Origin: Pseudomonadota bacterium
GTDB taxonomy: Bacteria; Desulfobacterota; Desulfobulbia; Desulfobulbales; JAGXFP01
Direction of reading: 5' to 3'
Assembly (NCBI GenBank): GCA_018814305.1
Contig: JAHJAA010000045.1
Coordinates: 1 to 64,000 of the forward strand
DNA length: 64,000 nt
Each line of letters begins with the position of its first letter. Within the stretch, counting starts at the first letter, position 1. A program made the translations under genes and the position numbers. This document shows, one piece after another, positions 6,129 to 10,994 of this stretch. The notes under the pieces were generated by a model, which saw nothing but the letters and a program-made list of their open reading frames with translations, was not told the DNA's origin and did not search any database.

Positions 6129-6938
6129 ATGATTAGCTTTCCATTTTTCAAAACAACCCGACCAAAAAACCGTGGATCATCTGCACTGAACGAATCCCAT
6201 TCCGACGGAACGGGAGATCCGCGACATGATGTTGAAAAAGAACAGTTCAGAACCGTCCTGGAGACCATGCAGGCGACAAGGATCCAGGAAAGGCTGGAGA
6301 TCCTTGACCTCTTCCTGTCCATTGAACAGCATGTGACCTTACTGGAACTTGCCGTACTCGTGAGGGAGAAAAATCCTGCCCGTATTCATGATATGAACTT
6401 CCTGAAGGAAACCATGGAAATGTTCTGTCAGTGCGGGTTCGCCAGAAAAAGAATTTTTGAAAGTCAGGATCCAGTTTATGAACACCATCATCTGGGAGCG
6501 CATCATGACCATTTCATCTGTACTGCCTGCGGCGAAATCAGAGAATTTCACAATCCTGCCTTGGAACGGTTACAGCTTGAGATTGCCATGGAACATCATT
6601 TTCATCCATTGCAGCATAAGATGGAAATCTATGGTCTTTGTACCAACTGCCTTGAGCAACGGGAACCAAAGCCACCGCTGCTGCTGACCACGGTGGGTGA
6701 ACGGGTTAAAATCGTTGAAATAACCGGTAGCAGAGAGGTTCGTGGTCGTCTTGCCGCCATGGGTCTCTCGCCTGGAACAATCCTGGAGGTGATCAACCGG
6801 AATCCGGCCGGACCGGTTATAGTCGCCACCAATGATGTTCGAATTGCCCTTGATACCTCGTTAGCCGCAAACATCAGGGTTGTCCATTCATGTCGACACC
6901 CCCATTGCCTCGACCAGGAAAATCATCCCTTATCGTAA
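6129..6938 (+). CDS. Fur family regulator fused to a C-terminal FeoA domain
   Basis: A two-domain protein of 269 residues. The N-terminal half (about 35-180) is a Fur-type winged helix plus dimerisation domain: the metal-site cluster HHHLGAHHDHFICTACGEI, the dimer-face His run MEHHFHPLQHKMEIYGLC, and two CxxC pairs (CTAC and CTNC) for structural zinc. The C-terminal part (about 188-255) is an SH3-like FeoA domain (TVGERVKIVEITGSREVRGRLAAMGLSPGT... split across the domain). FeoA normally assists FeoB Fe(II) transport, so the fusion probably couples iron sensing with a FeoA-like module. No feoB is in the window. Start ATG 6129 is tentative; residues 1-35 are low in family similarity. It overlaps the convergent DUF2156 gene by 16 bp at 6923-6938. 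Confidence 0.85.
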   Translation: MISFPFFKTTRPKNRGSSALNESHSDGTGDPRHDVEKEQFRTVLETMQATRIQERLEILDLFLSIEQHVTLLELAVLVREKNPARIHDMNFLKETMEMFCQCGFARKRIFESQDPVYEHHHLGAHHDHFICTACGEIREFHNPALERLQLEIAMEHHFHPLQHKMEIYGLCTNCLEQREPKPPLLLTTVGERVKIVEITGSREVRGRLAAMGLSPGTILEVINRNPAGPVIVATNDVRIALDTSLAANIRVVHSCRHPHCLDQENHPLS

Positions 6939-7849: not shown

Positions 7850-7956
7850 TGGGTTATGAATACTCAGAGCTGTCTTGCATTCGCGAAGGGGAGTGATTAG
7901 TATGGCTGATCCGTGGTTGATTCTCTCTATTATTTTTATCTTATTTTTGATTGATT

Positions 7957-9690
7957 ATGAAGGTAATTCTTGCCAAAAATGCCGGTTTTTGCATGGGTGT
8001 TCGCCGGGCAGTTGAAACAACCCTGGAAATGGTCCGTCAGGACGGTGAAGGGATTGCGACACTTGGTCCCCTGATCCACAATCCCCAGGTCCTTGATCTC
8101 TTGGGTGAAAGGGGCGTACAGATCCTGAGCGATATTCCCGAAACGAGTCAAGGCACCATCATTATCCGAGCCCATGGCGTACCGCCGGAAAGCAAAGCCA
8201 GGCTTGAGGCAAGCGGTGCCAAGGTTAAAGATGCCACCTGCCCAAGGGTACTCAAGGTTCAGGCGATTATCAAAAAGCATCATCAACAGGGGTATGCCAC
8301 AGTGATCATCGGCGACCGTAATCATGCCGAAGTCGAAGGTCTCCTGGGGTTTGCCGAAGGGACCGGTGTGGTGATCAGTAATGACGAAGAGGCCCGGAAC
8401 ATCCATCTGACTTCCCCTTATATTGTGGTCAGTCAAACCACCCAGGATAATGAATCATTCACCCGGATGAGCCAATTGATACTTGACCGTGTTCCCGAAG
8501 GGAAGGTCTTCAATACAATCTGTGATTCGACCCATAAACGTCAGGATGCAGTTCTCACCCTTTGTGATCAGGTTCAGGCTATGGTAGTCGTGGGCGGCAA
8601 GAACAGCGCCAACACCAAACGCCTTGGGGAGATCGTGAAAAAGAAGGGGTGTCCGGTCTATTTTGTTGAAACCGAAGACGATCTGGATCTGATGGCCTTT
8701 TCCCAATATGATACAGTCGGGGTAACCGCAGGGGCCTCAACCCCTTCATGGATGATAAATCGAGTAGTCAGGTCACTTGAGTCCATTCCCGGACAGGACG
8801 AAGGCTTTCTTTTTTCCTTACTCTATCAGGTGCAACGGTTTCTGCTGGCCTCAAATCTCTATGTCAGTGTGGGTGGAGGTTTCCTGGCCTGTGTTACCAT
8901 GGGACTCATGGGACGCTCATTCGGCTCGGTGGTCTTCATGGTCGTCTTCGGCTATCTTTTGGCAATGCACAATATCAACCGCTTTAAAGTTCCCGGAGGT
9001 GGTTTTTCCGACCCAAGTAGAGACCGCTTCCGCCGTAAATATGGCTGGATCCTCTGTGGCGGGTCAATCGTTTTTCTAATCAATTCATTCCACCTTGCCG
9101 CCACCCATAATGAATATTCCATACTGCTCCTTGCCCTTTTAAGCACCATGGGCATTTTATATACAGTCCGGATTATCCCCCGGGCGGTTTCTGGAATTAT
9201 CAAGGTCCGGCGGTTGAAGGAAATTCCCGGATCAAAGACTCTCTTTGTCTCCATGGCCTGGGCTGTGGTCATCGTTCTGGTCCCCACCTACCATTCGACG
9301 CCGCCTCTTGCAAAGGGTACCCTGGGTGCCGCTTTTTTAATGGTTTTTCTGGTGACCTACATAAGAAGTGCCCTTTTTGATGTTTTTGAAGTTCAGGGAG
9401 ATCGAATCGTTGGCAAAGAAACCTTGCCCGTTTTTTTGGGTCAGGAAAAAACCCTGAATATTTTATATACGCTTATTGGATTTCTTCTATCCCTGCTGAT
9501 TGCCGGGCCTCTACTGGGATTGTTAACCCCCCTCGCATACTGGCTCATTCCAGCAGTGGTATATCTCTTCCTGATCATGTATCTTTATCAACGGGGGAAG
9601 GTCAATAATGGTTTGCGGTTGGAATTCGCTCTTGACTCGTTGTATCTCATCGCGGCAGTTATGGTCGGAATCGGGTCATTTGTTGACTAG
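7957..9690 (+). CDS. ispH: IspH (LytB) fused to a UbiA-like prenyltransferase membrane domain
   Basis: Residues 1-280 are a complete 4-hydroxy-3-methylbut-2-enyl diphosphate reductase, the last step of the MEP isoprenoid pathway. The three cluster cysteines are present: KNAGFCMGV, KDATCPRV and NTICDSTHKRQ. Residues about 285-577 form a polytopic membrane domain with about 8 hydrophobic segments. Its FDVFEVQGDRIVGKETLPVFLG is like the second Asp-rich motif of UbiA prenyltransferases. The first motif region, LAMHNINRFKVPGG, lacks the normal Asp-rich signature, so catalysis is uncertain. ATG 7957 is preferred over the TTG at 7951. The fusion would put IPP/DMAPP production next to a membrane prenyltransferase-like fold. 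Confidence 0.9.
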   Translation: MKVILAKNAGFCMGVRRAVETTLEMVRQDGEGIATLGPLIHNPQVLDLLGERGVQILSDIPETSQGTIIIRAHGVPPESKARLEASGAKVKDATCPRVLKVQAIIKKHHQQGYATVIIGDRNHAEVEGLLGFAEGTGVVISNDEEARNIHLTSPYIVVSQTTQDNESFTRMSQLILDRVPEGKVFNTICDSTHKRQDAVLTLCDQVQAMVVVGGKNSANTKRLGEIVKKKGCPVYFVETEDDLDLMAFSQYDTVGVTAGASTPSWMINRVVRSLESIPGQDEGFLFSLLYQVQRFLLASNLYVSVGGGFLACVTMGLMGRSFGSVVFMVVFGYLLAMHNINRFKVPGGGFSDPSRDRFRRKYGWILCGGSIVFLINSFHLAATHNEYSILLLALLSTMGILYTVRIIPRAVSGIIKVRRLKEIPGSKTLFVSMAWAVVIVLVPTYHSTPPLAKGTLGAAFLMVFLVTYIRSALFDVFEVQGDRIVGKETLPVFLGQEKTLNILYTLIGFLLSLLIAGPLLGLLTPLAYWLIPAVVYLFLIMYLYQRGKVNNGLRLEFALDSLYLIAAVMVGIGSFVD

Positions 9691-9908: not shown

Positions 9909-10994
9909 ATGTTGGGTTGGTTTCGAAAAAACAAAAAGCAGGTTTCCCCATCAGAAAGCGAGGTATCCCTCGAAACTGAGTCGTCTCATTCCATCATTAA
10001 TAAAGAAGGGGGAGAACTCGAACCGAGGGATTTATCCCCTGAGAAAGGTAGCGAAGATCCTGTGAGTCGGGGAAGTCTCGCTTCTCGACTTAAGCGCGGT
10101 CTCTCCAGGACCCGTGAATCTTTTCTAAAAAAGATCGATGACCTTTTTCTTGGACGCAAAAAGATCGATCAGGATCTCCTGGACGAACTTGAGGAGATTT
10201 TGATCACCGCCGATCTGGGGGTGAAAACGGTTGAAGATTTGCTGGAAGCGGCCAGATCGCTGGCTGATCGTGATGAATTGGCCGATTCTTCAGCCTTGAA
10301 AAAAATTTTAAGGGACAAGGTCGTAGAATACCTTTCCGTCGCCCAGAACAAAGCAATGGCATTGCCTGATTCCGGACCTTTTGTGATTATGGTTCTGGGG
10401 GTCAACGGCGTGGGAAAGACCACAAGTATCGGAAAAATTGCCCACAAGTTCGTGGCCTCAGGCCAGAGTGTCTTACTGGTTGCCGCCGATACCTTCCGGG
10501 CTGCTGCCACTGAACAACTCCAGGTATGGGGAGAACGGATCGGGGTTGAGGTCGTGGCCCGCGAATCAGGCGTTGATCCATCATCGGTAATCTATGATGC
10601 CTTGGAGTCGGCTCGCGGACGAACCAGCGACGTGGTTATCGTCGATACCGCCGGTCGGATGCATACCAAGGTCAACCTGGTGGAAGAATTAAGAAAGATC
10701 AAGCGGGTCATGGGTAAGAAAATTTTTGGTGCCCCCCATGAGGTCATGCTGGTCATTGATGCCACCACCGGCCAAAATGCCATTTCCCAAGCCAAATTGT
10801 TCAATGATGCGGTTCAGATCACCGGCCTGACCCTGACCAAACTTGACGGGACCGCAAAGGGGGGAATCGTGGTCAATATCAGCCGGGAACTCTCAATCCC
10901 GATCCGATTCATCGGAGTCGGTGAACAACTTGATGACCTGCGCGATTTCGATCCGGAAGAGTTTGCTGAAGCGCTCTTTTCTTCGGTGAATTAA
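9909..10994 (+). CDS. ftsY: Signal recognition particle receptor FtsY
   Basis: SRP receptor GTPase that docks ribosome-SRP complexes on the inner membrane. The N-terminus is charged and variable (residues 1-70), followed by the NG domain: LSRTRESFLKKIDDLF at the start of N, G1 GVNGVGKTTSIGKIA, ADTFRAAATEQL, DTAGRMH, and TKLDGTAKGG, then GVGEQLDDLRDF near the end. At 361 residues it has a short A domain compared with E. coli. The stop codon TAA (10992-10994) is immediately followed by the terminal repeat of a 191-bp MITE-like element at 10996. Confidence 0.96.
   Translation: MLGWFRKNKKQVSPSESEVSLETESSHSIINKEGGELEPRDLSPEKGSEDPVSRGSLASRLKRGLSRTRESFLKKIDDLFLGRKKIDQDLLDELEEILITADLGVKTVEDLLEAARSLADRDELADSSALKKILRDKVVEYLSVAQNKAMALPDSGPFVIMVLGVNGVGKTTSIGKIAHKFVASGQSVLLVAADTFRAAATEQLQVWGERIGVEVVARESGVDPSSVIYDALESARGRTSDVVIVDTAGRMHTKVNLVEELRKIKRVMGKKIFGAPHEVMLVIDATTGQNAISQAKLFNDAVQITGLTLTKLDGTAKGGIVVNISRELSIPIRFIGVGEQLDDLRDFDPEEFAEALFSSVN

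Follow-up and report, generated by a model that had tools for sequence, protein, structure and literature searches.

The membrane half of an IspH-UbiA fusion protein lacks the first-motif aspartate that binds Mg in a characterized UbiA enzyme, and this half is nonetheless conserved. We found the fusion in a 64,000-nt stretch of DNA (the window; contig JAHJAA010000045.1), and all positions below refer to that stretch. On the sequence comparisons described here, we give roughly even weight to the reading that, in the window lineage, this half is a UbiA-derived membrane module that holds, and possibly regulates, IspH and is not a standard Mg-dependent prenyltransferase. The fusion itself has been known since 2015, when Rao et al. 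(Chem Sci, PMC4746011) reported 47 IspH-UbiA proteins in sulfate reducers with two DXXXD repeats, and proposed that IspH either feeds a prenyltransferase or is localised to the membrane by the fusion. Our literature search found no later study of the IspH-UbiA fusion; one later paper merely cites Rao et al. New here are the family-wide erosion of the motifs, the continued purifying selection, the domain deletions and the extension to Syntrophales.

A single reading frame encodes a complete IspH and a UbiA-fold membrane domain

The fusion gene (7957..9690, + strand) is a single open frame of 577 amino acids without internal stop. It starts at an ATG at 7957 and its stop codon ends at 9690; frame reading also places an in-frame TTG at 7951. 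The IspH (LytB) domain spans residues 3-274 (7963..8778, +) and is supported by PF02401 (E 1e-90) and PDB 3dnf (E 1e-58), with 277 bits against TIGR00216 (cut-off 188). The AlphaFold2 model of the whole protein has a pLDDT of 88.7, and a Foldseek search of the PDB with its first half returned IspH structures (3dnf, E 3e-20). The cluster ligands Cys12 (7990..7992, +), Cys95 (8239..8241, +) and Cys189 (8521..8523, +) are shared by all 94 distinct fusions that were aligned. The complete LYTB domain and its three cluster cysteines identify this half as IspH, as a preliminary description of this DNA had claimed. The top-scoring NCBIfam IspH model for the half (7957-8793, +) is the IspH-S1 fusion NF000907, which suggests that the window's type of IspH may be prone to acquiring C-terminal partners.

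The fusion is the only IspH of the window genome, and HMBPP reductase activity would therefore be expected of it. When 38 genomes were searched for IspH, 36 had exactly one match, G019 had one match and, at a contig edge, a further short fragment, and none was found in G028. Wherever the fusion is present, it is the only IspH.

The C-terminal half, which the preliminary description had called UbiA-like, covers residues 284-577 (8806..9687, +) and belongs to the UbiA superfamily by both profile and predicted fold. PF01040 matches residues 370-547 with 48.1 bits (cut-off 34.2). AlphaFold2 predicts 12 helices for this half with a mean pLDDT of 92, and the best Foldseek matches of the model are archaeal ApUbiA (4od4, E 7e-6) and AfUbiA (4tq4), with E values for the two structures of about 1e-5 to 1e-6. 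Further down the list is a weak match to UBIAD1 of the HMGCR-UBIAD1 complex (8djk, E 0.009). Against PDB sequences, profile A2 gave no match at E 1 and the wider profile A4 matched AfUbiA at E 0.002. The above-threshold PF01040 match and the Foldseek results rule out an unrelated membrane family. With a UbiA-like domain at the C-terminus of IspH in one frame, the protein falls within the family of Rao et al. and is securely identified as an IspH-UbiA fusion.

The fusion is widespread, and its membrane domain has most likely been deleted in some relatives

Full-length homologues of the window protein, in single frames with 48-62% identity, were found in 33 of 58 genomes, the window's own included. 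Together with the one open frame in the window, they exclude a frameshift between the domains, a point on which the preliminary description depended. A profile of the C-terminal half matched 126 of 297 genomes across the phylum. About 111 of these matches are strong (E 1e-33 or better; count by reading of the table), and all but four of the strong ones lie in frames of at least 567 aa. Two of the four short frames were inspected; one ends at a contig edge and one has in-frame stops. The eleven weak matches that were read individually likewise proved to be IspH fusions, their C-terminal halves being very divergent. At two loci the frame is broken: stops separate IspH from the remaining UbiA half at L174:1360-3156 (G075), and at L130:481-2312 (G005) the reading frame shifts inside the UbiA half. 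The congener of G005, G019, is intact, and the G005 change would be either a sequencing error or a recent pseudogene.

A scan of named genomes returned 66 loci, mainly from Desulfobulbales-type MAGs but also from Syntrophales/Syntrophus and Thermodesulfatator. Matches also came from single MAGs that carry the labels Planctomycetota, Spirochaetota and Candidatus Wallbacteria, each as a single contig with the label as given. IspH precedes the UbiA half in every frame long enough to judge, and a fusion architecture with a UbiA-like half is far beyond chance. Across the family, IspH distances correlate with UbiA distances (r 0.85). This is consistent with one long-standing fusion whose halves would have been inherited together.

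Nine relatives in the order encode an IspH about 56-66% identical to that of the window and lack the UbiA half. These unfused genes occupy the same kind of locus, beside ftsY and usually with a DnaJ/TerB gene. In the window, ftsY (9909..10994, +; TIGR00064) is the downstream neighbor, and synteny shows that it is kept in fused and unfused relatives. Because the unfused relatives fall inside the fused clade on the IspH tree, the UbiA domain was most likely deleted there; the best tree has three changes between the fused and unfused states, whereas a single change is required if well-supported branches alone are counted. In the four of the nine unfused genomes that were listed in the profile search, no UbiA relative of the fused type was found. 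The domain is thus dispensable for IspH in some backgrounds. A distant unfused IspH (about 34% identity) occurs at L139, L140, L143 and L144, which belong to families f12 and f13 of the same order, where IspH was probably replaced.

The first aspartate-rich motif is eroded in the window lineage and beyond

In AfUbiA, Mg is coordinated by N68 and D72 of motif 1 and by D198 and D202 of motif 2. The substitutions N68A and D72A abolish GPP binding, and in E. coli MenA the mutation equivalent to the motif-1 Asp (N+4) abolishes activity. D76 is no direct ligand, and conservation in the family is highest at Tyr139 (PMC4106721). By alignment, AfUbiA N68, D72, D198, D202, D76 and Tyr139 correspond to N341, N+4, position 478, D482, N+8 and Y402 of the window protein.

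The first motif of the window protein (H338-N339-x-N341-R342 ... D352-P353; 8968..9015, +) reads HNINRFKVPGGG. N341 is kept, N+4 is Val, and Asp is at neither N+4 nor N+8, leaving the protein without the NxxxD of a catalytic UbiA prenyltransferase. The second motif (D475-x-x-E478-x-x-x-D482 ... G486-x-E488; 9379..9420, +) is recognisable as D475-VFEVQG-D482, with ExxxD (E478, D482) at the DxxxD position. The conserved TM4 tyrosine of catalytic UbiA proteins is present as Y402 (9160..9162, +). The preliminary description had judged the first motif degenerate and the second recognisable, and both judgments hold.

We compared these positions across 94 distinct fusions. D482, G486 and E488 occur in all 94, Tyr402 in 93 and N341 in 89. 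The N+4 Asp is present in 62, lost in 32 and absent from the window clade, and parsimony on the IspH tree gives 11 changes at this position. Only 10 fusions have the N+8 Asp. Position 478 is Asp in 54 and Glu in another 24, and N+4 Asp and Asp at 478 occur together in 31. In the window protein and its family, N+4 is Val or Gly, N+8 is Gly and position 478 is Glu. The main family shows next to no variation at the pocket positions N341, Y402, R470, D482 and E488. As a control, MqnP-type UbiA paralogues of the same order were compared, and all four Asp are present in each of the 20. Some relatives, such as L008 and L037-L040, still have NxxxDxxxD, and the erosion thus squares with the two motifs reported by Rao et al. 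Groups f28 and f15 likewise include fusions whose motifs are canonical. Judged from these alignments, the degeneration of the first motif is real, lineage-specific and one part of a wider erosion in the family.

Arg at N+1 ("N then Arg, not Asp") was considered as the telling defect and rejected, as the MqnP-type paralogues also read NR..D; it is N+4 that matters. Metal might still be bound through E478, or through the Asn that some other members have at N+4. A second UbiA paralogue of the window genome (L032:1348-2346) has the sequence NDYLGLEED, in which N+4 is Gly; its gene adjoins one that is Old Yellow Enzyme-like. Because this protein (NDxxG), another UbiA type, also lacks the N+4 Asp, absence of that residue alone is no proof of inactivity.

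The membrane domain is under purifying selection with or without the first motif

The fused domain of group f43 (seven genomes) has neither the first-motif loop nor a Tyr402 equivalent, and in group f48 the first motif and the Tyr402 equivalent are likewise missing. Alignment to the family with hhalign gave probabilities of 95.6 for f43, 99.6 for f48 and 99.8 for f89, and 1.7 for a reversed f43 control. Despite this link, the f43 and f48 domains score below the Pfam UbiA cut-off. The f43 domain has a dN/dS of 0.07-0.36, indicating purifying selection. Classical prenyl transfer is not plausible for a domain of this type, yet the domain has been kept.

By the Nei-Gojobori method, with pairs of saturated dS left out of the interpretation, close pairs have a dN/dS of 0.08-0.23 across the UbiA half, alike with or without the N+4 Asp; clades without it range from 0.11 to 0.23. 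In the window-family pair L003/L007, dN/dS is 0.20 for the UbiA half versus 0.12 for IspH. These values rule out a decaying, unconstrained UbiA domain.

Gene neighborhood and other UbiA genes

The Desulfobulbales neighbors, ftsY and the DnaJ/TerB gene, give no hint of function. In Syntrophales, genes for exonuclease VII, polyprenyl synthase (ispA), DXS (dxs) and an FtsJ/TlyA-like methyltransferase (tlyA) are followed by the fusion, and this gene order speaks for a role in isoprenoid metabolism. The window genome encodes two other UbiA proteins, one of them MqnP-like. The MqnP-like gene adjoins ubiX-like and ubiE-like genes, named from our reading of their sequences, which makes the fusion unlikely as the menaquinone prenyltransferase. 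Upstream in the window, at 6129-6938 (+), a Fur-type regulator domain and a FeoA domain are joined in one protein (PF01475 + PF04023). At 9 of the loci compared, this Fur-FeoA protein recurs close to the fusion.

Possible functions of the membrane half

We propose that the IspH half, as the sole IspH, would make IPP and DMAPP, while the UbiA half, which retains the UbiA fold and some pocket residues (N341, Y402, D482) without the first-motif Mg ligand, would tether IspH at the membrane. The UbiA half may also bind a prenyl compound and so affect IspH. The preliminary description had suggested both scaffolding of IspH and coupling of precursor supply to membrane prenyl transfer, the two roles already published by Rao et al. 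For the window lineage, scaffolding or regulation is favored over catalysis because the N+4 Asp is absent from its protein and has been lost repeatedly across the family, and the domain is conserved nonetheless; coupling to prenyl transfer becomes the less favored of the two. The tether or regulator reading is further favored by the retention of motif-less domains in f43 and f48, under purifying selection in f43, and by the contrast between eroding fusions and MqnP-type paralogues that keep all four Asp. The relatives in which IspH persists beside ftsY after deletion of the domain point the same way, as does the separate MqnP-like prenyltransferase in the genome.

The proposal of Rao et al. 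that the membrane half is an active prenyltransferase, with unspecified acceptor and fed by prenyl diphosphates from the IspH product, is possible but in our view doubtful. It draws on the UbiA fold found by Foldseek, on purifying selection and on the nearly invariant N, Tyr and last Asp. The near invariance of N341, Y402, R470, D482 and E488 suits retained chemistry and weakens the tether or regulator reading, as do the 31 of 94 members that keep all four ligands thought essential and the Syntrophales fusion beside ispA and dxs in an isoprenoid operon (ispA-dxs-tlyA-fusion). However, AfUbiA requires the N+4 Asp to bind GPP and EcMenA requires it for activity (PMC4106721), and this residue is gone from 32 of 94 fusions and from the window clade. 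Fused domains that lack the motif are maintained by selection, and the expression attempts of Rao et al. failed, no full-length active fusion protein being obtained (PMC4746011). The domain could still be an unconventional enzyme because the five pocket residues are so well kept.

That conservation also bears on whether the domain is a pure membrane anchor in which hydrophobic helices alone matter. The retained f43 and f48 domains and the loss of the entire domain in some relatives would suit an anchor, but main-family conservation peaks at the former pocket and not across the helices, and we regard this explanation as improbable. By analogy with UBIAD1 and HMG CoA reductase, the membrane half might be a pseudo-prenyltransferase that senses an isoprenoid in the membrane, such as a prenyl diphosphate, and tunes IspH; the fusion would then be the bacterial, single-chain equivalent of that pair in the MEP pathway. 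This reading also seems rather unlikely. An assembly or annotation artefact, or a frameshift between two genes, deserves practically no credence. Nothing in the window speaks for it, one relative (G005) has a frame change in the UbiA part, and the identical architecture in more than 100 genomes refutes it.

In the 2015 reading, the fusion linked a prenyltransferase to the supply of its precursors. The membrane half seems unable to act as a prenyltransferase in many lineages, yet it is under selection. What had been named a "Rosetta stone" protein would thus become a test case of membrane tethering or control of an essential MEP-pathway enzyme, and these data caution against annotating IspH-UbiA fusions as prenyltransferases.

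Comparison with known systems

The fusions of Rao et al. 2015 share domain order, size, sulfate-reducer setting and a separate UbiA/MenA in the genome with the window protein. They were reported with two DXXXD motifs, whereas the window protein lacks the first, and the family described here reaches Syntrophales and includes motif-less forms. AfUbiA and ApUbiA (4tq3/4tq4, 4od4/4od5) resemble the UbiA half of the window protein in fold and in the conserved N, Tyr and last Asp. Unlike these enzymes, that half lacks the N+4 and N+8 Asp, has Glu in place of the first motif-2 Asp and is fused to IspH. The IspH-RPS1 fusions (NF000907), the closest NCBIfam IspH model by score, also carry a C-terminal extension on IspH; their partner is soluble ribosomal protein S1, unlike the membrane UbiA half. 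UBIAD1 senses GGpp and binds to HMG CoA reductase (PMC9314443). The complex (8djk) resembles the fusion, as an analogy only, in that a UbiA-fold protein is bound to an isoprenoid-supply enzyme. It differs in that the partners are separate eukaryotic proteins of the mevalonate pathway and UBIAD1 is catalytic.
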